64,000 bases of DNA from Bifidobacterium asteroides (GTDB lineage Bacteria > Actinomycetota > Actinomycetes > Actinomycetales > Bifidobacteriaceae): positions 310,001-374,000 of the forward strand of contig NZ_QGLL01000001.1 of NCBI RefSeq assembly GCF_003202695.1, in the 5' to 3' direction. The position numbers and the translations under genes were made by a program. The notes under the pieces are model-generated. The model saw only the letters and a program-made list of their open reading frames with translations, did no database searches and was not told where the DNA came from. Positions 2 through 32,731 of this stretch are shown piece after piece. The first letter of the stretch is position 1; each line of letters begins with the position of its first letter.

Positions 2-2251
2 AAGGTCAGCCCCGAGGATCGCCAGCAGATCCGTGGTATGGCCCTGACCGTTCAGTCCGAGATCACCGATCGCTACACCAACCCGGTCAAGATCGAAGAC
101 ATCCAGACCCTGGTCGAGCATGCCCTGGTCAATGCCCATCTTTACGAGATCGCGCGCTCCTATACCTCCTACCGTCTTGACCGCGACATTCAGCGTGCCA
201 AGGCCACTGATGTCAACGAGGCTGTTCACCGCCTGACCAGCAAGGACGAGACCTTGGTGCGTGAGAACGCCAACAAGGATGCCAACGTCTACGCCACTCA
301 GCGCGACCTGCTGGCCGGAGCGGTCTCCAAGGCCTCGGCCTTCGCCATGCTGCCCAAGGATGTCTCCAACGCCCACATGAAGGGCGATATTCACTTCCAT
401 GATGCGGACTACTCGCCCTTTACGGCCGAGACGAACTGCTCCCTGCCTGACTTCGGCGATATGCTGGCTCATGGCTTCGAGCTGGGCAACGCCATGATGG
501 ACTCGCCCAAGTCCATCGGCACGGCCGCCACACAGATCACCCAGATCATCAAGGACATCGCAGGTTCCCAGTACGGCGGCCAGACCGTCAACCGCTGCGA
601 CGAAATGCTGGACAAGTACGCCCGTCTGGACTACAAGAAGAACTATTCCATGGCTGAGGCCGTTCTGCCGGACGAGGAGCCCATCGACGTGGCCAAGGAT
701 GTCGTCCGCGGCCTCAAGGCTCGGGAGGCTGACTGGCTGCACCTGGACGATCGCGCCCCCATTGGCGAGGATGCCCCCTTCGATCTGGATGCTCCGCAGA
801 TCGTTCGCCTGCGTCAGGTCTATGCCAAGATCCTGACCCGCAAGAACATATACGATGCCATGCAGACCATGGAGTACCAGATCAACTCCAACCGTGTCAG
901 CAACGGGCAGACGCCCTTCGTCACCGTTGGCTTCGGTCTGGGCACCTCCTGGTTCGCCCGGGAGATTCAGCGGGCCATCTTCCTGATTCGCATCCGCGGA
1001 CTGGGCAAGGATCGCCACACCGCCATCTTCCCCAAGCTGGTCTTCACCATCAAGCATGGTCTGAACGCAGACGAGGGCGATCCCAACTACGACATGAAGC
1101 AGCTGGCGCTGGAGTGCTCGACTAAGCGCATGTATCCTGACGTGGTCTTCTACGAGAACCTGGTCAAGATCACCGGCTCCTTCAAGGCCCCCATGGGCTG
1201 CCGATCCTTCCTGCAGGGTTGGACCAACCCCGAGACGGGCGAGGACGAAGAGGACGGCCGCATGAATCTGGGCGTCGTCACAGTCAATATCCCGCGCATT
1301 GCTCTGGAGTCCCGCGGGGACAAGGATCGCTTCTGGAAGATCTTCGACCAGCGTATGGAGGTGGCTCACCATGCTCTGCAGTTCCGCATCATGCGCTGCA
1401 AGCAGGCCACGCCCATCAACGCCCCGACTCTCTATCAGTACGGCGCCTTCGGCAGGCTGAAGCCGACTGACAGCGTGGACACCCTCTTCCGCAACAGCCG
1501 CGCCACTGTTTCGCTGGGATACATCGGCCTTTACGAGGCCACCAGCGTCTTTTACGGCAAGGACTGGATGAAGGACCATAGCTGGGATCCGGATGGCAAG
1601 GAATTCGCGCTGAGCATCGTGCGCAGGATGAACCAGCTCTGCAAGCAGTGGGAGAAGGCCGAGGGATACCACTATTCGGTCTACTCCACGCCGGCCGAGT
1701 CGCTGACTGATCGCTTTGCTCGCATGGACAAGGAGAAGTTCGGCGTAGTCGACGGTGTGACTGACCACGACTTCTATACCAACAGCTTCCATTACCCGGT
1801 CTGGCTGCGGCCTACGCCCATGGAGAAGCTCAGCTACGAGCGGGACTTCCCCTACCTGGCTTCGGGCGGGTTCATCAACTACTGCGAGTTCCCCTCGATG
1901 CAGCAGAACCCCAAGGCCCTGGAGGCGGTCTGGGACTATGCCTACGACATCGGCATCGGCTACCTGGGCACCAACACCCCTATCGATCATTGCTTCGTCT
2001 GCGGCTATGAGGGTGATTTCGAGCCCACTGAGGAGGGCTTCAAGTGCCCCGAGTGCGGCAACGACGACCCCGATAAGTGCAACGTGACTAAGCGCACCTG
2101 CGGTTACCTGGGCAATCCCGTTCAGCGGCCCATGGTCCACGGCAGGCATGAGGAGATCGCCCACCGTGTCAAGCACATGGAGGGCGAGACCGGCCACGTG
2201 GTCCTCAAGGACGGATCCACCAAGGAGTGGTTCGACGATAAGGCCGAGTAG
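2..2251 (+). CDS. nrdD: Anaerobic ribonucleoside-triphosphate reductase (class III), 5' truncated by window edge
   Basis: Glycyl-radical enzyme that reduces ribonucleoside triphosphates to deoxyribonucleotides without oxygen. The reading frame is open to the left edge: codons before the first ATG at 38 read on without a stop, so the true start and probably an ATP-cone domain lie outside the window. The C-terminus has the four-cysteine zinc site (two CxxC pairs, CFVCG and CPECG) followed by the glycyl-radical motif RTCGYLG. A 12-bp perfect stem lies between it and nrdG, whose product activates it. Keeping this enzyme fits an organism that mainly grows without oxygen. The family call is secure; only the N-terminus is unknown. 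Confidence 0.97.
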   Translation, partial: KVSPEDRQQIRGMALTVQSEITDRYTNPVKIEDIQTLVEHALVNAHLYEIARSYTSYRLDRDIQRAKATDVNEAVHRLTSKDETLVRENANKDANVYATQRDLLAGAVSKASAFAMLPKDVSNAHMKGDIHFHDADYSPFTAETNCSLPDFGDMLAHGFELGNAMMDSPKSIGTAATQITQIIKDIAGSQYGGQTVNRCDEMLDKYARLDYKKNYSMAEAVLPDEEPIDVAKDVVRGLKAREADWLHLDDRAPIGEDAPFDLDAPQIVRLRQVYAKILTRKNIYDAMQTMEYQINSNRVSNGQTPFVTVGFGLGTSWFAREIQRAIFLIRIRGLGKDRHTAIFPKLVFTIKHGLNADEGDPNYDMKQLALECSTKRMYPDVVFYENLVKITGSFKAPMGCRSFLQGWTNPETGEDEEDGRMNLGVVTVNIPRIALESRGDKDRFWKIFDQRMEVAHHALQFRIMRCKQATPINAPTLYQYGAFGRLKPTDSVDTLFRNSRATVSLGYIGLYEATSVFYGKDWMKDHSWDPDGKEFALSIVRRMNQLCKQWEKAEGYHYSVYSTPAESLTDRFARMDKEKFGVVDGVTDHDFYTNSFHYPVWLRPTPMEKLSYERDFPYLASGGFINYCEFPSMQQNPKALEAVWDYAYDIGIGYLGTNTPIDHCFVCGYEGDFEPTEEGFKCPECGNDDPDKCNVTKRTCGYLGNPVQRPMVHGRHEEIAHRVKHMEGETGHVVLKDGSTKEWFDDKAE

Positions 2252-2270
2252 GCTCTGAAAAGACGCAACC

Positions 2271-2303
2271 AATGGCGGGCCGGGCAGTTTGCGGCCCGCC
2301 ATT
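2271..2303 (+). other. Intercistronic hairpin between nrdD and nrdG
   Basis: Positions 2271-2282 (AATGGCGGGCCG) are the exact reverse complement of 2292-2303, with a 9-nt loop. No T-run follows, and the nrdG Shine-Dalgarno GAGGA begins only a few bases downstream. It could be a processing or mRNA-stability element, or an attenuating structure that lowers nrdG relative to nrdD. Confidence 0.6.
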
Positions 2304-2320
2304 GTCATGAGGAGGACCGT

Positions 2321-3043
2321 ATGACGGACAAACAGGGGGCCATGAGGAAGACAGGCGGTCACCGTGACTTCGCGGCTGATGAGCAGGGGCGCGGTCCAGG
2401 AGTCCCCTCTGGGCTGACCATCAATCCCAAGGCAGGACAGTGGGACGGACGTCGGCTTAGTCGGGGAATCGTGGCGGACTACAAGCGACTGGTCATGACC
2501 GATGGCGAAGGCATCCGTTGCTCCCTATACGTCAGCGGCTGCCCCTTCCGTTGCCAGGGGTGCTATAACTCATCCATCTGGGATTTCAGTGCCGGACATC
2601 CCTATACCCGGCAGCTTGAGGACCGCATCATCAAGGACCTGTCGCTGTCCTATGTGCAGGGCATCACCTATCTGGGCGGGGAGCCCTTGCTCAACACACC
2701 CATGCTGCTCGGCCTTTCGGAGCGGATCCGACGTGAGTTCGGCCACGAGAAGGATATCTGGTGCTGGACCGGCTACACCTGGGAAGAGCTGAACCGGCCG
2801 GGGGAGACTCCGGACAAAGCCCAGCTGATCTCCTATCTTGACGTGCTGGTGGACGGACGTTACTTGGAGAATCGGAAGAACAGCCTGCTTCAGTTCCGAG
2901 GCTCGGACAACCAGCGGATCATCGACGTGCCACGTTCTTTGGAGCAGGGCCAAGTGGTCATCTGGCCCAAGCTGCACGACCAGACCAGGTTCATTCCGGA
3001 GACCTACAGCAAGGACCGACAGCAGGAGCAGCAGCGAGGCTAA
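2321..3043 (+). CDS. nrdG: Anaerobic ribonucleotide reductase activating protein (radical SAM)
   Basis: Radical-SAM activase that places the glycyl radical on NrdD using S-adenosylmethionine and a [4Fe-4S] cluster. The cluster ligands are visible as CPFRCQGC, Cys74, Cys78 and Cys81 (CX3CX2C), followed by an LGGEPL segment typical of the family. The protein is 240 aa, longer than the roughly 155 aa of the E. coli enzyme, mostly because of about 50 hydrophilic N-terminal residues. An AGGAGGA ribosome site precedes ATG 2321. It lies 69 bp after nrdD on the same strand and is surely co-expressed with it. Confidence 0.95.
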
Positions 3044-3086
3044 TGCCGGCCCCTGCTCTGTCTTGGCCAACGTCGCCTTGCCGGGG

Positions 3087-3092
3087 CACAAT
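3087..3092 (+). promoter_or_regulatory. Candidate -10 box for a leaderless gltX transcript
   Basis: TTGGCC at 3063-3068, an 18-bp spacer, then CACAAT at 3087-3092 places transcription start at about 3099-3100, on the ATG of gltX. No Shine-Dalgarno precedes that ATG, which agrees with leaderless expression. Both hexamers are weak matches, so this is an inference. Confidence 0.35.
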
Positions 3093-3099
3093 GGGTGTC

Positions 3100-4626
3100 A
3101 TGACTGATGAGCATGATCACGACGCTAAACCAGACCTGCCCAAGGACCTGAGGGTCCGCTTCTGCCCTTCGCCGACCGGCACCCCCCATGTGGGCATGGT
3201 CCGCACAGCCCTCTTCAATTGGGCCCAGGCCCGGCACTCGCATGGCACCTTCGTCTTCCGCATCGAGGACACCGATGCACAGCGCGACAGCGAGGAGAGC
3301 TATCAGCAGATTTTGGATGCTCTCAAGTGGCTGGGGCTTGACTGGGACGAGGGGGTCGAAGTGGGCGGTCCGGATGGCCCCTACCGGCAGTCCCAGCGCG
3401 GCGATATCTACCGTGATGTGGCCCGACAGCTGGTGGATGCCGGCTATGCCTATGAGTCTTACTCCACTGCTGAGGAGATCAAGGAGCGCAACCTGGCCGC
3501 CGGTCGTCCGGCCGCTTTCGGCTATGACGGCTATGACCGCGACCTGAGCAAGGAGCAGCGGCAGGCTTTCCGCGAGCAAGGCAGGCGCCCCGCCCTGCGC
3601 ATCCGAATGCCCGACGAGGACATCGCCTTCAGCGATCTGATCCGTGGGCGCATCGAGTTCAAGGCCGGATCCGTACCTGATTACGTGATCGTGCGTCCCA
3701 ACGGCGATCCCCTCTACACCCTGACCAACCCGGTGGACGATGCTCTGATGCGCATCAATGTAGTTCTACGTGGCGAGGATCTGCTCAGCTCCACTCCCCG
3801 GCAGATCGTCCTCTATCGGTACCTGATGAAGCTGGGCATAGCCCGAGCCATGCCCCTGTTCGGGCACCTGCCCTACGTCATGGGCCAGGGTAAGAAGAAG
3901 CTGTCCAAACGCGACCCTGAATCCAACCTCTTCCTACATCGGGAGCATGGCTTCATTCCTGAAGGACTGCTGAACTATCTGGCTCTGCTGGGCTGGTCCA
4001 TCGGCCCGGACCGTGATGTCTTCTCCATGGACGAGATGATCGAGCACTTCGATATTCGCGATGTCAAGGCCAATCCGGCTCACTTCGACCTCGACAAGGC
4101 CGTAGCCATCAACGCCGAACACATCCGCATGCTGGAGCCGCAGGACTTTCTGAACCGATCCCTGCCCTACCTCAAGCGCGACGGGCTGGTGAGCGCTGAA
4201 CGCTGGCAGGACCTGAGCGATCGGGAGCAGCGAATTCTGGCCGCTGCCGCCCCTCTGGTCCAGCCTCGTGTGCGCCTGCTGGGCGAGGTTTCCGGCATGG
4301 TTGGCAGTCTGCTCAGCCAGGAGGAGTATCTGGAACCTGAGTCGGATGCCCGCAAGCAGCTCAAGGACTCCGCCGGACAGGTCCTGGACCTGGCTATTGT
4401 CGCTCTGCAGGGTGTGCCCGACCAGGATTGGAAGACCGACCACCTGCACGATCTGCTCACTCAGGCGCTGGTGGAGGAGGGCGGCTACAAGCCTCGTCTG
4501 GCCTTCGGCCCGGTCAGGGTGGCGGTCTCAGGAAGGCGGGTCTCGCCGCCCCTGTTCGAGTCTCTGGAGATCCTGGGCAAGGATACAACACTCCGAAGGA
4601 TGACCAACTTGCGCCAAAACCTCTGA
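3100..4626 (+). CDS. gltX: Glutamyl-tRNA synthetase
   Basis: Class I aminoacyl-tRNA synthetase that charges tRNA with glutamate. The HIGH-type signature is [10 protein letters not shown] near the N-terminus and the KMSKS-type loop is [10 protein letters not shown]. The length of 508 aa from ATG 3100 is normal. A longer frame from ATG 3043 overlaps the nrdG stop (TAATG), but its extra 19 residues look non-conserved and ATG 3100 begins the expected MTDE...[15 protein letters not shown]-like N-terminus. In many actinobacteria this enzyme is non-discriminating and also charges tRNA-Gln for later amidation by GatCAB. The two tRNA genes directly downstream are Glu and Gln. Confidence 0.95.
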
Positions 4627-4694
4627 TCGGGTATATTTCTTTTTTGTTGTGCTACTGACCTGCTGAACCGGGTTCGTACGCGGCGAAAAGTGAA

Positions 4695-4767
4695 GCCCCC
4701 GTCGTCTAGCGGTCTAGGACTACGCCCTCTCACGGCGCCAACACCGGTCCAAATCCGGTCGGGGGTA
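4695..4767 (+). tRNA. tRNA-Glu (anticodon CTC)
   Basis: The acceptor arm GCCCCCG pairs with CGGGGGT, the T arm is ACCGG/CCGGT with loop TCCAAAT, and the anticodon loop CTCTCAC gives CTC, reading GAG. CCA is not encoded. It lies about 70 bp after gltX. Confidence 0.93.
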
Positions 4768-4808
4768 CGACATGTGGCAATCGTCCAAGCAATTGTCGCA
4801 GAGCCAAT

Positions 4809-4880
4809 TGGGGTATGGTGTAATTGGCAACACAGGTGATTCTGGTTCATCCATTCTTGGTTCGAGTCCAGGTACCCCAG
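4809..4880 (+). tRNA. tRNA-Gln (anticodon CTG)
   Basis: The acceptor arm TGGGGTA pairs with TACCCCA. The anticodon stem GGTGA/TCATC holds the loop TTCTGGT, giving CTG, which reads CAG. The T arm contains GGTTCGAGTCC. CCA is not encoded. It lies 41 bp after tRNA-Glu and is probably co-transcribed with it. Confidence 0.93.
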
Positions 4881-4901
4881 CGATAGAGACATAAAGTTTC
4901 G

Positions 4902-4942
4902 AGGAGCGGAACACCGACACGGTGTTCCGCTCCTTTCCGTTT
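4902..4942 (+). terminator. Rho-independent terminator after the tRNA pair
   Basis: A 15-bp perfect stem (4902-4916 with 4920-4934) has a 3-nt ACA loop and is followed by a T-rich stretch (TTCCGTTT). It ends the gltX/tRNA transcription unit. Confidence 0.88.
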
Positions 4943-5131
4943 ACGGATTATTATAGCTCCTAGGAATGCTTCCGGTTTGCAAAGCGGCGGCTGGATGCGT
5001 CCAATGGAATTGCCCGTGGTGTGAGCAAGCAAACAGAAAGAGGAGGCCCGGCAGACTGCTATGTCAGAGTTTCCGATGATGGAATCTGCTATTTTGAGCA
5101 TAGAAGCTTGAGTGGTGGACCCAATCATCGG

Positions 5132-5159
5132 TTGATCGGGCGACATCACCCGGTATAGG
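5132..5159 (+). promoter_or_regulatory. Candidate promoter of ndh
   Basis: TTGATC at 5132-5137, a 16-bp spacer and TATAGG at 5154-5159, with start near 5166 and ndh ATG at 5197. The rest of the roughly 250-bp gap 4943-5196 shows no coding signal or clear repeat. Confidence 0.45.
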
Positions 5160-5196
5160 AATCATTGTACGATTTTTTCGGTAAAGGTGTGTGATT

Positions 5197-6372
5197 ATGA
5201 CGACAATCATGGTGTTGGGAGCTGGTTATGCGGGTCTTCGCGCGGTCAAGAAGCTGGTTCGCGCAAAGACTGATGCCCGTATAGTCCTGGTCAATCAGAA
5301 TGAATACCACTACGAGTCCACCCAGTTGCATCAGGTGGCGGCGGGGACCAAGGAGCCGGCGGACATAGTCTTCGACTTGCGCAAGGCCCTGCCTGATTCG
5401 GTGGAGCTGATCGTCGACAAGGTGGTTGGCATCGATCAGGACAACCGCCGGGTCAGCCTGGAGCATCATGACCCCCTTTCCTATGATTACTTGATCAATG
5501 CCCTGGGCTTCGAGTCCGAGACCTTCGGCATCAAGGGAGCCGACGAGTACGGGTGGCCCATTATTGATGTGGATACTGCCCTGGCGGCCCGCAAAAAACT
5601 GGAGCAGACGCTGGCCCGCTACCAGACCAGCCATGATCCGCTGGATCTGAGCATTGCGGTCTGCGGCGCAGGCTTCACCAGCATCGAATACCTGGGCGAG
5701 CTGGTCTATCGGCTGCCTCAGCTATCCAAGCGTCTGGGCTTCCCCATGGATCAGGTCAAAGTGGATTGCATAGAGGCCTCGCCCAAGATTCTGCCTATGT
5801 TCAGCAAGGATCTGGTCGACTGGGCTGTGGATTACCTGCGCAAGCGGGGAGTTGCCTTCCACACCTCGACTCCTATTACCGAGGTCAGGGAAGATGCCGT
5901 TGTCTCCAATGATCAGGAGTTTAAGGCCCATACGATCATTTGGACAACGGGTGTGCGCGGCAGCCACGTTATTGCCGACTCCGGGTATAATCAGAAGCGT
6001 AACCGTGTAGTGGTCAGGGATGACTTGTCGGTGGAACAGCATCCAGAGGAGTTTCTGGTGGGTGATGTCAGCGCCGTTCCCGACCCCCAATCGGGTCGGC
6101 TCTACCCCACTACTGCACAGATTTCGATGGCCCAGGCTAATACCGCAGCCGCGAATGTCCTTGCCAGACTGCGGGGGCAGGAGCCCGAGCGGTTCACCTT
6201 CCGAAGCCTGGGGACCGTGTGCTCTCTCGGTCCCCATGACGGGGTTGCCGAAATCGACCGAATGGGTACGCTGAAGCTCAAGGGCAAGGTTGTTTCGGCT
6301 CTGAAGTGGATTGTCAACGAGCGATCGGTTCTGGAATTGGCCGATGTGCGTACCATGTTGGAGAGCAACTGA
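5197..6372 (+). CDS. ndh: Type II NADH dehydrogenase (FAD, non-proton-pumping)
   Basis: Membrane-associated flavoprotein that oxidises NADH and passes electrons to the quinone pool without pumping protons. An N-terminal FAD-binding motif VLGAGYAGL, a second dinucleotide fold CGAGFTSIEYLGEL, and the late YPTTAQISMAQA segment are typical. The product is 391 aa. ATG 5197 is chosen because AAAGG lies at proper spacing; a GTG at 5191 sits too close to it. It stands in front of the cyd genes on the same strand, so Ndh and cytochrome bd probably form a two-enzyme NADH:oxygen chain. Alternative family members are soluble NADH oxidases, but the sequence favours the quinone-linked type. Confidence 0.9.
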   Translation: MTTIMVLGAGYAGLRAVKKLVRAKTDARIVLVNQNEYHYESTQLHQVAAGTKEPADIVFDLRKALPDSVELIVDKVVGIDQDNRRVSLEHHDPLSYDYLINALGFESETFGIKGADEYGWPIIDVDTALAARKKLEQTLARYQTSHDPLDLSIAVCGAGFTSIEYLGELVYRLPQLSKRLGFPMDQVKVDCIEASPKILPMFSKDLVDWAVDYLRKRGVAFHTSTPITEVREDAVVSNDQEFKAHTIIWTTGVRGSHVIADSGYNQKRNRVVVRDDLSVEQHPEEFLVGDVSAVPDPQSGRLYPTTAQISMAQANTAAANVLARLRGQEPERFTFRSLGTVCSLGPHDGVAEIDRMGTLKLKGKVVSALKWIVNERSVLELADVRTMLESN

Positions 6373-6427
6373 ACCGCTGTTGCAAGGGGACGCAATGGGC
6401 AAGGCGATTAGGGGAAGGAGGACGGAC

Positions 6428-6676
6428 ATGGCTCATGTCATGGAGATGTTGCAGCATCGTTCTGTGATGGGAAGCATGTCCGTCCCTCTTTTGCCTCGGA
6501 TCGGCTCATTCTTGTCCACGATGGCTCTTGGCCCAGTGTTCATTAACATTATATTGACTACCTCCTGCTCTTCCTCATCCTGGCGGAAATCGTGGCCGAC
6601 TATGGCCCCCGCCAGGTTTGTGGAGATCCCCGTGCCAGCATGCGGATCGGCAGGAGCGAGAGGAGAGTGGTATTAG
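6428..6676 (+). CDS. Possible small ORF of unknown function between ndh and cydB
   Basis: An 82-aa frame starts at ATG 6428 behind a strong AAGGAGG at 6415-6421 and ends one base before the cydB start. I do not recognise the protein. It is Ser-, Met- and Pro-rich with a short hydrophobic stretch (ALGPVFINIILT) and no cydX-like character. It may be a leader peptide, or simply a chance frame in a 305-bp spacer that also carries a candidate cyd promoter. Codon use is not clearly that of a conserved gene. Confidence 0.25.
   Translation: MAHVMEMLQHRSVMGSMSVPLLPRIGSFLSTMALGPVFINIILTTSCSSSSWRKSWPTMAPARFVEIPVPACGSAGARGEWY
6528..6555 (+). promoter_or_regulatory. Candidate promoter for the cyd genes
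   Basis: TTGGCC at 6528-6533, a 16-bp spacer and TATATT at 6550-6555 give a start near 6562 and a leader of about 115 nt before cydB. The AT-rich patch stands out against its surroundings. Confidence 0.4.
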
Positions 6677-6677
6677 C

Positions 6678-7730
6678 ATGAGTTTCCTACAAGGTTTCTG
6701 GTTCTTCATCATTGGCCTGCTTTTTGCAGGGTTCCTTCTGTTGGAAGGATTCGACTTCGGCGTTGGCATGGCCACCAGATTTGTGGCTCGCGACGGTGAC
6801 GAGCGTGCCACTTTCATGAGGGCCATTGGCCCCCACTGGGACGGCAATGAGGTCTGGTTGGTCACCGCCGGCGGCGGTATGTTCGCAGCTTTCCCGCTTT
6901 GGTATGCTTCTCTCTTCTCGGGGTATTACATTCTGCTCTCGCTGGTGCTGGTCTCTCTGATCCTGCGTGGCATCTCCTTCGAATTCGCCTCCCATGCGCT
7001 GACCAGCCGTGAACGCGGCGTCTGGCAGTGGGCCAACTTCATTGGCTCCCTCTTTGCGCCCTTCTTCCTGGGCATGATGCTGACCAGCCTGATCCAGGGC
7101 ATTCCCATGGACAAGGACGGTAATGCCTGGCCCGGGTTCTTCGACGTCTTCAACTGGCTGTCTGTGGTCGGCGGCATAGCAGTCGTCTTCTTCAGCTTCG
7201 TTCATGGCCTGCACTTCCTGAGCCTGAAGTTTGGGGCTGTGGAATCTCGGCGGATGCTCAACGTCAGTGAGAAGGCCTACTGGATCGCGTATCCTGCCCT
7301 GGTTGTCTTTGTGCTTCTCGCCATCTTCAACACTGATTTCTATAAGGCCCGCCCCCTGTCTACCTGGCTGATCACTGTGATTATCCTGGCATCGGTCATA
7401 GGAGGCCATGTTGCCGACTTCAAGAAGCGCGACGGCTATGCCTTCACTTGCTCAGGCATCACCTTGATGGCTATCATCGCCTTTATTTTCAATGGGCTCT
7501 TCCCGCGCGTGATGATCGCTGACGACCCGGCCCACAGCCTGCTGATCCAGGATGCCTCGGCCTCTCCGTTGACCATGAAGATCATGACTGTAGTGCTCTG
7601 CATCTTCCTGCCCATTATGCTGGCCTACTTCATCTGGAGCTACTTCATCCAGCGCAAGCGGCTGGACACCGATGGCATCCATCTGACCTCACCTGTGGCT
7701 TCTTCGGCCACTGTGGCTGAGACCATCTGA
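6678..7730 (+). CDS. cydB: Cytochrome bd ubiquinol/menaquinol oxidase subunit II
   Basis: Membrane subunit that partners CydA in the high-affinity quinol:oxygen oxidoreductase. The N-terminal LLLEGFDFGVGM and the GPHWDGNEVWLVTAGGG segment are hallmarks of CydB. At 350 aa with about eight or nine hydrophobic segments it is full length. The frame runs upstream, but ATG 6678 has GAGAGGAGAG before it and begins the canonical MSFLQGFWFFIIG. It precedes cydDC and is separated from cydA by two genes, an unusual order. Co-transcription with cydDC is likely because the gap is 62 bp. Confidence 0.95.
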   Translation: MSFLQGFWFFIIGLLFAGFLLLEGFDFGVGMATRFVARDGDERATFMRAIGPHWDGNEVWLVTAGGGMFAAFPLWYASLFSGYYILLSLVLVSLILRGISFEFASHALTSRERGVWQWANFIGSLFAPFFLGMMLTSLIQGIPMDKDGNAWPGFFDVFNWLSVVGGIAVVFFSFVHGLHFLSLKFGAVESRRMLNVSEKAYWIAYPALVVFVLLAIFNTDFYKARPLSTWLITVIILASVIGGHVADFKKRDGYAFTCSGITLMAIIAFIFNGLFPRVMIADDPAHSLLIQDASASPLTMKIMTVVLCIFLPIMLAYFIWSYFIQRKRLDTDGIHLTSPVASSATVAETI

Positions 7731-7792
7731 AAATCTAAAAGGGGGCAAGGGACAGTGCTGGCAGGATCTGAGCGTATCCAGAGGATGATGCA

Positions 7793-27310: not shown

Positions 27311-27600
27311 GTCTGGTGGCCATCGAAAAATTCTGAGGGCTATAGGGAATGCGAAGGCTGTGGAGCCTGAGCCATCAACCTTTTGATTGGCGATAACCGG
27401 TTTTCAGATCAAGCCGCGCGTCCGGCTTGCCAGGTTCGTGTATCAGTCCTGGCATGCCTGTTCGTGCCAAGCTTGTGGATGAGCGACTGCGTCCGGGCCG
27501 TGCTGCCTTGCGAGGGGATATTCTGCTGTCTTGAATGATGCATCTGCTCGGGCAGGTGCGTGAGGTTGAAAATCATGTCCAGGATGAGGAAAGCCGAGGG

Positions 27601-28752
27601 ATGATGGTCAGGAAACGTGTTGTGGTGCTTTATGGCGGGCGTGCCGACGAACATTCCATATCCTGCGTGTCGGCGGCTGGTGTGCTCAATGCCATCGACA
27701 CCGACCGATATGAGCCCATCCCCATTGGCATCACCAAGGACGGTCGATGGACCGTAGGCGGTCAGGACCCTAAGCATTGGGGTCTGGACGATGCCAGTCT
27801 GCCAACGGTGCAGATAACCGAAGACAGCCGTCCGGTCATTCTCGACATGGCCCGCGGCAGAGAGGGTTTTCTGATCGGCGACCATGCTGATCTGATTTCT
27901 GGCGCCCAACCTTCCAGCGCAGTCGGCTCCCTGGAGCCTTTGGGACATGTTGACGCGGTTTTCCCGGTGCTCCATGGCCCTTACGGTGAGGACGGCACTC
28001 TGCAGGGTCTGCTCGAAATGATGGGTCTGCCCTACGTCGGATGCGGGGTTTTCGCCTCTGCCGCATGCATGGACAAGCACTACACCAAGATCCTGCTCAG
28101 TCAAGCCGGCATACCTGTGGCTCCTGGCATTACCATAGACTCCCGTGAACAGCGGTCCGGCTCCGACCTGCTAGCCACAGTAGAGGAGGCGGGGCTGCAT
28201 TACCCGCTCTTCGTCAAGCCTTCCCGTGCAGGATCCAGTTTTGGCGTGGTCAAGGTAGAAGAGCCCGAAGACGAGACCCTGGCTGCCGCAGTCGACGAGG
28301 CCGCAAGGCACGACTGGCGGGTCCTGATAGAGGAGGGCATCGAAGGACGGGAGATCGAGTGCGCTGTGCTCGCCTCCGGCAAGGACGGAAAGCCCCGCAC
28401 GGCCTGGCCCGGCGAAGTGGTGCTGGACAAGGCTGATCGGGATGAGGCCTTCTATGATTTCGACAGCAAGTATGTAGACTCGTCCGCCTCCCATGTGGAG
28501 GTTCCAGCGGACCTGCCAGAGGAGACTCTTCAGAAGGTTCGCGATATGGCTGCCAAGGCCTTCAGAACCGTGGACGGCGCCGGTCTGAGCCGTGTGGACT
28601 GCTTTGTAACCTCTGAGGGCAGGGTCATCGTCAACGAGATCAACACCATGCCTGGTTTCACGCCTATCTCCATGTATGCCAAGGCCTGGGAGGCCACCGG
28701 GATTACCTACACCGATCTGATTACCGATCTGATTGAGGGCGTATCGGCCTGA
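27601..28752 (+). CDS. ddl: D-alanine--D-alanine ligase
   Basis: ATP-grasp ligase that makes the D-Ala-D-Ala end of the peptidoglycan stem peptide. LYGGRADEHSISCVSA is the N-terminal signature, HGPYGEDGTLQGLLEM and KPSRAGSSFGV are the middle motifs, and VNEINTMPGFTPISMYA the C-terminal one. It is 383 aa from ATG 27601. An in-frame ATG at 27535 adds residues unlike the family. It follows murA, plsC and gpsA, so the block serves the cell envelope. Confidence 0.94.
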   Translation: MMVRKRVVVLYGGRADEHSISCVSAAGVLNAIDTDRYEPIPIGITKDGRWTVGGQDPKHWGLDDASLPTVQITEDSRPVILDMARGREGFLIGDHADLISGAQPSSAVGSLEPLGHVDAVFPVLHGPYGEDGTLQGLLEMMGLPYVGCGVFASAACMDKHYTKILLSQAGIPVAPGITIDSREQRSGSDLLATVEEAGLHYPLFVKPSRAGSSFGVVKVEEPEDETLAAAVDEAARHDWRVLIEEGIEGREIECAVLASGKDGKPRTAWPGEVVLDKADRDEAFYDFDSKYVDSSASHVEVPADLPEETLQKVRDMAAKAFRTVDGAGLSRVDCFVTSEGRVIVNEINTMPGFTPISMYAKAWEATGITYTDLITDLIEGVSA

Positions 28753-28821
28753 CTGTGACAGTGAGTGTTTCCTATAATGGAAGCGTCCGCTGTTGTACTC
28801 GCTGGTAAGGCAAGGTTCCCC

Positions 28822-31350
28822 ATGAACGCTGGTCCCGTTAAGCTGCTGAGTCTGATTGCCGATAAGAGCAAGCGTTTTATCGTCCCAGTGTATCAGCGCC
28901 CATATTCCTGGGATGAGGAACAATGCGAGCAGCTTTGGAACGATGTGCTTGATATTGAGCGTTTAAACAAAAGATCTCATTTCATGGGCTCAGTGGTATG
29001 GATTCAAGAGGGCACCATGGGTGCCGATGGGGTGACACCTGCCCTCATTATCGACGGTCAGCAGAGAATCACAACTGTCAATCTTCTCCTAGCAGCCCTT
29101 GCTGACTATGCACGCAGTCATCAAGATCAGGGCAATGAGCTGCAGTTTTCCTGCGAAAAACTCAAAAGCGAATATTTGATCGATTCCTGCAGGAAAGGCG
29201 AAGGGCATTATCGTTTGTGCCTCTCGCAGGGTGATCGTGACACATACAGGTCTATCATCCATCATTTGGAAGATCCTAAGGCTTCGATTATGGGTGAATC
29301 CCATAGGCTCATCGACAACCTCCATTGGTTCAGTCATCAATTAGAGGACATGAAAGACCCGAACAGTGTGTGGGCCGGGCTCAGGCGCTTGGAGGTGGTA
29401 TCGATCTCCTTGACCCAGGGTCAGGATGATCCACAGGCTATCTTCGAGTCCATGAACTCGACTGGCAAGGAGCTATCGACTGCAGATCTGGTTCGTAATT
29501 ATGTACTCATGAGGCAGCCCTTGGAGATGCAGGGAAAGTTGTATGAAGATCACTGGAGAAGAATCGAAATAGCGCTTGGTGCAGATGCCTATGATGACGT
29601 TTTTGATGACTTTCTCTATGACTGGCTTGCCATTATCAATGCCCCCAGACCAGTGTCTGCACGAGACGTATACCGGTTCTTTAAGGACTATACGACCAAC
29701 AATGGCTACGATAACGATGGCCAAATAATCGGACTTCTTGATCAGATGAGTAAGTTTGCCGGGTATTATTCGCGTATTACTTCGAGCTCGGGGGAAGATC
29801 CTGAAGTAGATCGATTGCTTGGCCGTATTCATGCTCTCAATATGTCCGTCATCAACCCCCTGCTCATGACCCTTTTGGATGATTACCAGGAGGGGGATGA
29901 TCTCTTTAGCCGCAGTGATTTTGTATCCATGCTGAAACTATTGGAGAGTTATCTCTTCCGCCGCATTGCCTGCCAGATATCGAGCAATGGGCTGAACAGG
30001 TTTTCGCTTTCGGTCATTGCACGTCTCAGACAGATAAAGGAAGATGGGTCACCCGGTTATCGGCAGGCTTTCGAGGCAGCCTTGCTGGGCGGTGATGGAA
30101 CAAGCCATCGGATGCCTGATGACAATGAATTTCGTCAGACTCTTCTTTCACGCGACTTCTATCCCTTTTCGCGTTGTTATTACATGTTGACAACACTGGA
30201 AAATGCGCACCATCCTAAGAATCCGATTGACTTTTCCTCAGGGAATCTCACCATTGAGCATATTCTGCCCCAGAATGCGCTCGCTCATGAACAGTGGCGG
30301 CAGATGCTGGGCTCTGATTGCGAAAGAGCCTTTGCTGAGCATGTTAATAAACTCGGAAATTTGACGCTGACCGCTTATAACTCTGAACTCTCAGATGGGC
30401 TTTTTGAAGCGAAACAGCGTCGAATTATCGGCGGGTATCAGGATGAATACCTGTCTATTTCACATGGGTTGGGTGATGCCAAGACTTGGAACGCTGAGTC
30501 CATCGAGGCCAGGACGCGCCTACTGACAGACGAGGCCTTGACAGTCTGGCCTATGCCTAAGATCGATCGAGCGACTATCGACAGGTACCGATCTGATAAG
30601 CAGTCGAAAATTCCGGCAAAGACGGTTTCTTTGCACATGTTGAGTGCCAGTGGACTGCTGAAACCCGGCGATCAACTGGAAAGTCATTCCCGCAAGTATG
30701 AGGCCAGTGCTCTCATAACTGAAGAGATGATGATTAAGGTCTCGGACGGGCGTGAATTTGACAGTCCCTCGTCAGCGGCTTCGCATGTTCTCAAATTGGC
30801 TGGGGCGAGCAGCAGCTCAATCAATGGCTGGACGTTCTGGGGACGTGGAGGCATCAGCCTTGACGATCTTCGTTCTCGTTACCGGGTCTCGCAAGGTGAT
30901 ATGGAGTCTTTGGACCGTTCGAAGTTGCGAGCCATGTTCTGGGATGGATTCGTTGACTTCTGTAAAGCCAGAGATGGCTTCATGACTACATTCGGCTCGT
31001 CCTTTACCGGAGCCGACCATACGGGATACCGGCTGAGTTTTGGATCCCCTGTTTCCGGCTGCAATCTGGCAGGTCTCATCGGCATCAGGGATGAGTACAC
31101 CACTGTTGAATTTCTCTTTCACGATCCTGTGCGATATGCAGACTTCATGGATCACAGGTCTCAGGTCGAGAGCGATCTGTCAGGACAGGAGGGTGATTTG
31201 GACTGGGATGATAAGGATGCAGACAAGAAGTCACGCCACCTGACTTTGACCAGGCATACTGATTACAAACAAGATCAATGGGATGATGTCTATCGTTGGC
31301 TGGCCGGCGCCTTGCTGAATATGAAAAGTGTCGGCAGATACGTCCGCTAG
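28822..31350 (+). CDS. DUF262-DUF1524-RAMA-DUF4268 fusion protein, probable modified-DNA restriction or defence protein
   Basis: 842 aa, intact. Residues 1-220 form a DUF262 (GmrSD N-terminal) domain with FIVPVYQRPYSW (residues 19-30) and the nucleotide-binding motif DGQQR (78-82). About residues 440-560 form a DUF1524 HNH-like nuclease region with EHILPQN (His480, Asn485) and NKLGNLT (509-515). About 606-673 match the RAMA domain (SGLLKPGD ... WTFW) that accompanies modification or restriction enzymes. About 704-835 match DUF4268. GmrSD, SspE and BrxU proteins combine the first two domains to cut modified or phage DNA with NTP hydrolysis. The gene is visibly A+T-richer than its neighbours, suggesting transfer. 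No methylase partner is adjacent. Start: TAAGGCAAGG lies 6 bp before ATG 28822. Confidence 0.82.
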   Translation: MNAGPVKLLSLIADKSKRFIVPVYQRPYSWDEEQCEQLWNDVLDIERLNKRSHFMGSVVWIQEGTMGADGVTPALIIDGQQRITTVNLLLAALADYARSHQDQGNELQFSCEKLKSEYLIDSCRKGEGHYRLCLSQGDRDTYRSIIHHLEDPKASIMGESHRLIDNLHWFSHQLEDMKDPNSVWAGLRRLEVVSISLTQGQDDPQAIFESMNSTGKELSTADLVRNYVLMRQPLEMQGKLYEDHWRRIEIALGADAYDDVFDDFLYDWLAIINAPRPVSARDVYRFFKDYTTNNGYDNDGQIIGLLDQMSKFAGYYSRITSSSGEDPEVDRLLGRIHALNMSVINPLLMTLLDDYQEGDDLFSRSDFVSMLKLLESYLFRRIACQISSNGLNRFSLSVIARLRQIKEDGSPGYRQAFEAALLGGDGTSHRMPDDNEFRQTLLSRDFYPFSRCYYMLTTLENAHHPKNPIDFSSGNLTIEHILPQNALAHEQWRQMLGSDCERAFAEHVNKLGNLTLTAYNSELSDGLFEAKQRRIIGGYQDEYLSISHGLGDAKTWNAESIEARTRLLTDEALTVWPMPKIDRATIDRYRSDKQSKIPAKTVSLHMLSASGLLKPGDQLESHSRKYEASALITEEMMIKVSDGREFDSPSSAASHVLKLAGASSSSINGWTFWGRGGISLDDLRSRYRVSQGDMESLDRSKLRAMFWDGFVDFCKARDGFMTTFGSSFTGADHTGYRLSFGSPVSGCNLAGLIGIRDEYTTVEFLFHDPVRYADFMDHRSQVESDLSGQEGDLDWDDKDADKKSRHLTLTRHTDYKQDQWDDVYRWLAGALLNMKSVGRYVR

Positions 31351-31376: not shown

Positions 31377-32282
31377 TCAGTTGGCTTGGTCTACACCTTT
31401 CCCCGATTGAAGCTCGGCCTCCTGGACCAGGTAATCCTGGCCGGCAAGAGCGCGGGTGGCGGCATCCTGCATGTCAGCGGCGATGATGCCCTGCTTGGCG
31501 AACATAACCACTTGGCCCTTAATGCCATAAGGGGTGAATCCCTGGAGCTGAACAATGGGCGGGTTGGCTGGCATGGCCATGTCCCTGGTCGCCTGGGACG
31601 CCACCTCTGCAATGGAACGTGAGGACCCGACTATATCGGCATCCCCCCGCAGGGTGAAGGGAACCGTGGTGGCGGCCTCGCCGGCCTCGGTGATTTTCTC
31701 AAGCGCCGTGGTGTTGAGGATGGAATTGGGGATCAGCAGCTGGTTGCCGGTCCTGTCGATGACGATGGTATGGCGCCAAGTCACGTCGCGGACAGTTCCA
31801 GTGGTGCCCTGGATGGTGATGATGTCGCCAGGTTGAACCACCTTGCTTACCATCAGTCCGAAGCCGCCGACGATATTGGCGATCGTATCCTTCAATCCGA
31901 AGGAAAGGGCCAGGCCGCTGACGCCCAGGGCGGCGACCACAGTGGAAGGGTTGATTCCGAATACGGGTTGCAGAACGGTGGCTGCTGCAAATATCCAAAT
32001 CAGGGCGCGGACGATGTTCACGAAGATGGAAACACTGGGCAGGTTGGTCCGTTCCAGGGCGCGCCGCATGGCCGCCGTAACGATCTTGGAGATCAACGCG
32101 GCGCAGACAGCCACGACGATCAGGAGGATGATCTTTCCGAAATTCTGGCGGAACCAGTAGATGACGGCATCGCTGAAGCTGGAGATGGCCTGTTCGGACC
32201 TTCCCATGGGGTCCTTGTTCGGATTGATGCTTGTGCTGGCCAGAGCTGGAATTTCACTGGCAAAATTGACGGTCAGATTCAT
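31377..32282 (-). CDS. mscS: Small-conductance mechanosensitive channel, MscS family
   Basis: Membrane channel that opens under membrane tension to release solutes on osmotic downshock; 301 aa. It has three hydrophobic helices, then the pore helix and beta domain with GLALSFGLKDTIANIVGG and VQPGDIITIQGTTGTV, as in MscS. ATG 32282 overlaps the TGA of the upstream acetyltransferase gene (ATGA), so the two are translationally coupled; the longer frame to 32351 would run into that gene. It ends 26 bp from the convergent RAMA-fusion gene, with no visible terminator. Confidence 0.9.
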   Translation of the reverse strand: MNLTVNFASEIPALASTSINPNKDPMGRSEQAISSFSDAVIYWFRQNFGKIILLIVVAVCAALISKIVTAAMRRALERTNLPSVSIFVNIVRALIWIFAAATVLQPVFGINPSTVVAALGVSGLALSFGLKDTIANIVGGFGLMVSKVVQPGDIITIQGTTGTVRDVTWRHTIVIDRTGNQLLIPNSILNTTALEKITEAGEAATTVPFTLRGDADIVGSSRSIAEVASQATRDMAMPANPPIVQLQGFTPYGIKGQVVMFAKQGIIAADMQDAATRALAGQDYLVQEAELQSGKGVDQAN

Positions 32283-32731
32283 GATGCCTGATCCTCTGAC
32301 TGGTTTCCTGTGCCTCCTGTTAGGGGCTTGTCCATCCACATGTGCGGGCATCCCTCGTCCTGGTCGTGAATGCCCATGTCGCGATACCCCAAGGACTTAT
32401 AGAAGCCCTCCACCCGTTCCTGGGCATGGAGCGTGAGCCGGTCCGCCCCCTGGTTCCGAGCGGTTTCCTCCGCCTTGCCTACCAAATCGGCACCCAGATG
32501 CTGACCTCGGTAGGGCTTCAGAACGGCCAACCGGCCAAGGGTCCATGCCTTGCCCTGGTCGGGAAAGATTCGGCATACTCCGACGGGCTTATCCCCGTCA
32601 TAGGCCACGATATGGAGACTGGCATCGTCGGTCCGGTCGAACTCGTTGTGAAAGCCCTGCTCCTTTACGAATACGGCCCTACGGATGGCCTTGGCGTCCT
32701 CGGAAATGGCCTCGCTCACCTCATATCGCAT
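32279..32731 (-). CDS. GNAT-family N-acetyltransferase
   Basis: 150-aa acetyl-CoA-dependent acetyltransferase related to the ElaA/YjcF type. AIRRAVFVKEQGF is the N-terminal helix region; LGRLAVLKPYRGQHLGADLV is the acetyl-CoA pyrophosphate-binding segment (the RGQHLG loop); GFYKSLGY closes the fold. The substrate is unknown. It is the first gene of a two-gene unit with mscS, joined by an ATGA overlap. The 193-bp gap before the divergent gene at 32925 holds the promoters of both, but no box is convincing. Confidence 0.85.
   Translation of the reverse strand: MRYEVSEAISEDAKAIRRAVFVKEQGFHNEFDRTDDASLHIVAYDGDKPVGVCRIFPDQGKAWTLGRLAVLKPYRGQHLGADLVGKAEETARNQGADRLTLHAQERVEGFYKSLGYRDMGIHDQDEGCPHMWMDKPLTGGTGNQSEDQAS

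Follow-up and report, generated by a model that had tools for sequence, protein, structure and literature searches.

An intact, horizontally exchanged DUF262-DUF1524 nuclease gene with RAMA and DUF4268 domains in Bifidobacterium asteroides

Members of the GmrSD nuclease family carry a DGQQR motif in the NTPase and an E/D-H-N-N motif of the HNH type (PMC4619093). BrxU (PDB 7P9K) and single-chain GmrSD are stand-alone type IV enzymes, where DUF262 and DUF1524 share one chain with the E/D-H-N-N motif, and act on modified cytosines (PMC8565348, PMC12409352, PMC12707154). DndI (PDB 9JFL), of the IscS-DndBCDE-DndI system, has the same core and the DGQQR motif, is 596 amino acids (aa) long without RAMA or DUF4268, and works with host phosphorothioation (PMC11662687). 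SspE (PDB 7DRS and 7DRI) needs phosphorothioation by SspABCD, and neither RAMA nor DUF4268 is reported for it (PMC9646914). Machnicka et al. (2015) list GmrSD cores with extra C-terminal domains, namely DUF4268, DUF4357, and DNA_binding_1 (PMC4619093). The subject here is a gene in a 64,000-nucleotide (nt) stretch of Bifidobacterium asteroides DNA (contig NZ_QGLL01000001.1, positions 310,001 to 374,000; the window), whose product joins DUF262 (GmrSD_N), DUF1524 (GmrSD_C), RAMA, and DUF4268 in one chain. It is an intact, horizontally exchanged DUF262-DUF1524 nuclease gene; the four-domain form was not found in the papers searched, and the core is of a known kind. The protein is probably a stand-alone restriction nuclease, and its trigger is most likely a phage base modification that its hosts lack.

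The domains of the 842-aa product were called with hmmscan against Pfam. DUF262 and DUF1524 both score above cut-off within one chain, and DUF4268 is marginal at 26.8 bits (cut-off 27), reaching 30.1 bits in a genome profile search. An alignment of 30 rows is composed of the window protein, three of its four orthologues, and 26 relatives. Invariant residues are D78-G79-Q80-Q81-R82, E479, H480, P483, N513, N520, and K531, and these fit the NTPase and HNH motifs given for the family (PMC4619093). The ATG start at 28822 agrees with the four orthologues and with six relatives having annotated starts. The gene has a G+C content (GC) of 0.497 vs 0.596 for the window, the lowest among sampled stretches of equal length. 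The four orthologues are likewise low (0.502-0.508), so the deviation is old and shared.

Earlier, a sequence-only reading of this DNA had proposed the four domains in this order in one protein and a stand-alone GmrSD-family gene, A+T-richer than its surroundings, between ddl and mscS with no methylase or partner. These points are borne out: RAMA and DUF1524 are both matched, the catalytic residues are intact, and the ddl-mscS interval of the carriers holds no further gene, methylase or other. The motif residues it named hold for DGQQR, H480, and N513, but Asn485 varies among the aligned rows. The structure prediction it suggested yields a confident RAMA fold and a core with a predicted fold of the DndI/SspE type. 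In a structure comparison the model is matched best by DndI and SspE, which follow a different logic from type IV enzymes, followed by the RAMA domains of MPND and CcrM and by BrxU. DndI is also the best match in sequence.

The ddl-mscS interval was compared among 27 congeneric genomes, as had likewise been proposed, and the gene is patchy rather than conserved in all relatives. A full-length copy is present in five genomes (G000, G008, G009, G011, and G022) and absent from 22. All five carriers have it between ddl and mscS, and in each the aligned flanks end 2630 nt apart. The search of genome contigs returned four orthologues and two distant partial matches. Orthologous loci belong to B. asteroides, B. 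choladohabitans, and B. polysaccharolyticum, all dwellers of the bee gut. The site is empty in seven close relatives (G003, G004, G007, G018, G019, G020, and G025) and in three further species (G013, G014, and G017), where 87-110 nt separate the aligned ddl and mscS ends, a figure that partly includes differing last mscS codons. By coordinates, ddl and mscS lie at most 400 nt apart in G005, G006, and G012. Such gain and loss at a single position among related genomes is typical of defence genes.

In G010, the site is occupied by a 6.1-kb operon (L019, G010:C1:449000-458200, about 1618-7734). Its products, by recognition, are a LacI-type regulator, an RbsA-like ATPase, a permease, a binding protein, and an RbsD-like protein, a set that reads as a regulator with a ribose ATP-binding cassette (ABC) transporter. 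The ddl-mscS interval is a shared insertion site for unrelated cargo such as this operon. The remaining eight genomes have ddl and mscS 6 to 23 kb apart. One genome with ddl and mscS far apart, G026, has a decayed copy elsewhere (L036, G026:C12:138000-147000, about 3900-6200), broken many times, with residues 1-762 matched in broken frames. Of the two genes beside it, one (644 aa) matches AAA_23 weakly (below cut-off) and the other (174 aa) matches nothing in Pfam; they may be a further defence pair.

A tree of nine flanking genes, from which plsC was left out, does not unite the carriers as a clade (approximately unbiased (AU) test, p 0.0007), and at least three changes are required. G009 pairs with the empty G003 (92/94), and G011 pairs with the empty G019 (100/100). 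Synonymous divergence (dS) between G009 and G011 is 0.03 for the gene copies and 0.06-0.33 for the nine flanking genes. The copies are closer than all nine flanks and thus moved between these lineages. A weaker test gives AU p 0.044, where the gene tree splits G008 from G022, joined by the flanks at full support. The gene is exchanged between species at the ddl-mscS site and is under purifying selection.

Nine of the ten orthologue pairs have a ratio of nonsynonymous (dN) to synonymous divergence, dN/dS, of 0.14-0.19; the most similar pair has 0.40. Taken singly, the four domains each give 0.12-0.20, so all four are being kept; the top ratio of any 40-codon stretch is 0.47, at residues 761-800 in DUF4268. 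Among the five orthologues, dN is highest at residues 81-160 (window 29062-29301), a stretch of DUF262 rather than of RAMA that may touch the target or phage inhibitors. Purifying selection is similar to that on mscS and weaker than that on murA, gpsA, and ddl, which, together with the chromosomal housekeeping surroundings, would suit a nuclease of repair, competence control, or a similar role outside defence. Such a role is very improbable, given that the gene is exchanged between species, that the 22 congeners with no full-length copy include one with a decayed copy, and that the protein reaches up to 463 bits with PADLOC models for defence proteins, both known and candidate.

Of the 394 genomes sampled from the class, 45 have relatives at E ≤1e-30. 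Fifteen relatives were scanned with Pfam, picked for variety from a set of 65 that comprised 29 class sequences, 7 from plasmid or phage records, and 29 viral ones. Their C-terminal domains at E 0.01 are DUF5655 (four), RAMA (four), RAMA with DNA_binding_1 (two), DNA_binding_1 (three), DUF4357 (one), and none (one); of the five matches to DNA_binding_1, three fall below the curated cut-off. RAMA and DUF4268 occur together in none of the 15. Three-domain GmrSD-RAMA proteins (L055, L125, L131, and L114) have the core and RAMA placed as in the window protein but no DUF4268 match. L114 is the best viral-contig relative (39% identity), with its N-terminus lost at the contig end. The G323 protein (L057) has the same layout, GmrSD_N-GmrSD_C-DNA_binding_1-DUF4268, in 843 aa with a DUF4268 tail. 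It differs in having an MGMT-like DNA_binding_1 domain (27.1 bits, cut-off 27) in the RAMA slot and in its low identity (~26%). This layout and the varied C-terminal domains support an exchangeable slot behind the nuclease.

DUF4268 is found in 8 of the 394 class genomes, two of which, G000 and G323, have it as part of a GmrSD chain. In the remaining six it lies in frames of 253-376 aa (three of them scanned with Pfam), too short to be GmrSD chains. Full-protein matches come from 15 phage records, none over 80% of its length; none of the 29 viral loci aligns past residue 687, and a plasmid tblastn search with the 260-aa tail gave nothing at 1e-3. Two proteins of ~325 aa (L103 976-1962 and L108 1453-2424) carry DUF4268 after an N-terminal region bearing IVENQ, a region that presumably resembles a PD-(D/E)XK-type nuclease. 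A wider proposal is that the HNH domain is followed by a plug-in slot for RAMA, MGMT-like, DUF5655, or DUF4357 domains, that DUF4268 forms a separate tail, and that RAMA and DUF4268 read a new feature of phage DNA, distinct from type I N6-methyladenine (6mA) and phosphorothioate. Taken as a whole, this proposal is rather doubtful.

The four-domain protein is undescribed in the open-access literature searched (DUF262/GmrSD with RAMA, DUF4268, and Bifidobacterium). RAMA is not named by Machnicka et al. (2015), and no description of the four-domain order was found there (PMC4619093). The sequence-only reading had supposed that this order might be unstudied, which stands for the full order within the literature searched and has to yield to the 2015 listing for GmrSD-DUF4268 fusions. 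Unpublished work on RAMA-HNH proteins may exist, as an author note mentions work on RAMA-HNH fusions (PMC12707154).

Methylases were sought in the 27 genomes with PF02384 (N6_Mtase), PF01555, and PF00145. PF02384 is matched in 16 genomes, including the carriers G000, G009, and G011. HsdS is confirmed in these three, and HsdR in both carriers examined for it, G000 and G009; the window's own genome has HsdM, HsdS, and HsdR. PF02384 is present in three of five carriers vs five of eight close non-carriers (two of these five weak), and PF01555 in one of five vs three of eight. In the carriers G008 and G022, none of the three families is matched anywhere in the genome, other methylase families not having been searched. 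The occurrence of the gene in hosts with and without such methylases speaks against a trigger in the form of 6mA at type I sites and against a host-protecting self-mark of these kinds.

RAMA might read 6mA, making the enzyme a 6mA-dependent type IV nuclease. The name of the domain, its proposed role as a 6mA reader, and an earlier MPND pull-down favor this (PMC11037411, PMC9963953), as does the confident RAMA fold in the model. However, MPND RAMA binds double-stranded DNA regardless of 6mA and without sequence preference, and CcrM RAMA touches only the DNA backbone (PMC9963953). HsdM and HsdS in three of five carriers indicate, from gene content, that adenine methylation at type I sites is apparently tolerated, though a context-specific 6mA site could still be the one read. 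Dependence on 6mA is unlikely. RAMA fused to DUF3780 is treated as a modified-base reader (PMC12839542), which favors the sequence-only view that RAMA marks a modification-dependent type IV system. The stand-alone layout and the lack of a cognate methylase at the site agree with that view; dependence on modification is a plausible hypothesis. RAMA alone is a weak marker of it, not proof.

A phosphorothioate-linked enzyme guided by host marks, like DndI and SspE, would account for the two best structural matches and for Y24-Q25-R26 of the window protein, which by eye resembles the Y30-Q31-R32 patch of SspE (PMC9646914). The DndC profile TIGR03183 matches none of the 27 genus genomes, which argues against a Dnd-type partner, though it may miss SspD (only sub-cut-off matches in controls) and ssp and other dnd families were not searched. 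No partner gene lies in the ddl-mscS interval either, and this explanation has very little probability. Linked adenine methylases were sought in eight neighbourhoods of relatives, each ~18 kb (seven RAMA-bearing, three by Pfam and four by alignment only, and one DUF4268-bearing). With ten phmmer queries, none of the eight gave an HsdM or HsdS match and three gave an HsdR/helicase match. At the viral-contig locus L125, HsdR and HsdS adjoin the GmrSD relative. At L067 (Ruegeria TM1040 megaplasmid), annotated type I genes adjoin a relative that aligns with the DUF5655 versions.

For a restriction nuclease triggered by phage base modification, phage cytosine modification is the default guess because BrxU and single-chain GmrSD target modified cytosines. 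A conflict with host C5-methylases (PF00145) was considered as a target clue. C5-methylase is matched in 8 of the 27 genomes, in none of five carriers and three of eight close non-carriers, and the empty sister species G003 and G019 each have a match. The pattern is suggestive in the clade but shows no exclusion class-wide, and it was not used as support. Several points weigh against the favored explanation. The clade difference is not significant (one-sided exact probability about 0.20, by hand), and class-wide a C5-methylase match occurs in 26 of 45 genomes with GmrSD relatives vs 212 of 394 overall (overlap counted by hand from two lists, both samples of 394 assumed identical). The structures that come closest, DndI and SspE, do not belong to the classical type IV enzymes. 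Model quality is low over DUF4268, with a predicted local distance difference test (pLDDT) of about 40-59, and the predicted template modelling score (pTM) of the whole model is 0.64, so the domain arrangement is uncertain.

The nuclease could instead be triggered through RAMA or DUF4268 by a phage protein, a DNA end, or a replication intermediate, with no base modification involved. This is consistent with RAMA contacting the backbone in CcrM and binding DNA without sequence preference in MPND (PMC9963953), and with carriers both with and without methylases. DUF4268 also occurs in short proteins behind what we take to be a nuclease-like N-terminus. No direct support comes from the present data, and the studied single-chain GmrSD and BrxU enzymes act on modified cytosines (PMC12707154, PMC8565348), leaving a trigger of this kind conceivable but improbable.

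In the favored scheme of a stand-alone, modification-triggered nuclease, DUF262 would bind and hydrolyze NTP at DGQQR. NTP turnover would alter the state of the protein on DNA, as reported for BrxU, DndI, and SspE, and the DUF1524 HNH site would then nick or cut foreign DNA. RAMA would be mainly a DNA-gripping module in the slot filled by other domains in relatives, and the tail domain, DUF4268, would add a further module for contact or control. The trigger, the least certain step, would be a phage base modification absent from the hosts and read by the DUF262-DUF1524 core with RAMA.

Table 1. Features of the locus, in window coordinates
Feature	Position	Strand	Remarks
DUF262-DUF1524-RAMA-DUF4268 protein gene	28822..31350	+	842 aa, stop included
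GmrSD_N / DUF262 domain	28855..29505	+	residues 12-228, Pfam
DGQQR NTPase motif	29053..29067	+	residues 78-82; invariant in 30 aligned rows
GmrSD_C / DUF1524 HNH nuclease domain	30112..30528	+	residues 431-569, Pfam
EHILP nuclease motif	30256..30270	+	residues 479-483; E479, H480, P483 invariant
N513 and N520 of HNH motif	30358..30381	+	both invariant
RAMA domain	30592..30891	+	residues 591-690; Pfam and structure model
DUF4268 domain	30925..31332	+	residues 702-837; Pfam
ddl, left edge of insertion site	27535..28752	+	name by recognition
mscS, right edge of insertion site, convergent	31377..32351	-	name by recognition
Promoter-like site CTGACT-18-TATAAT	28749..28778	+	overlaps ddl stop

TATAAT occurs in the ddl-to-gene spacers of all five carriers. 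The promoter scan found 4 sites vs 2.8 expected in shuffles and is therefore no evidence by itself.

The role of RAMA as a methyladenine reader has been proposed but is unsettled. A single-gene RAMA nuclease in hosts with and without type I adenine methylases, together with a natural MGMT-like swap partner, makes it testable by domain swaps. If the wider slot proposal is true, RAMA would recognize something novel, and the enzyme would be compatible with methylated and unmethylated hosts. For the B. asteroides group, this is a compact, defence-like gene with clean natural presence and absence, useful for phage work there.
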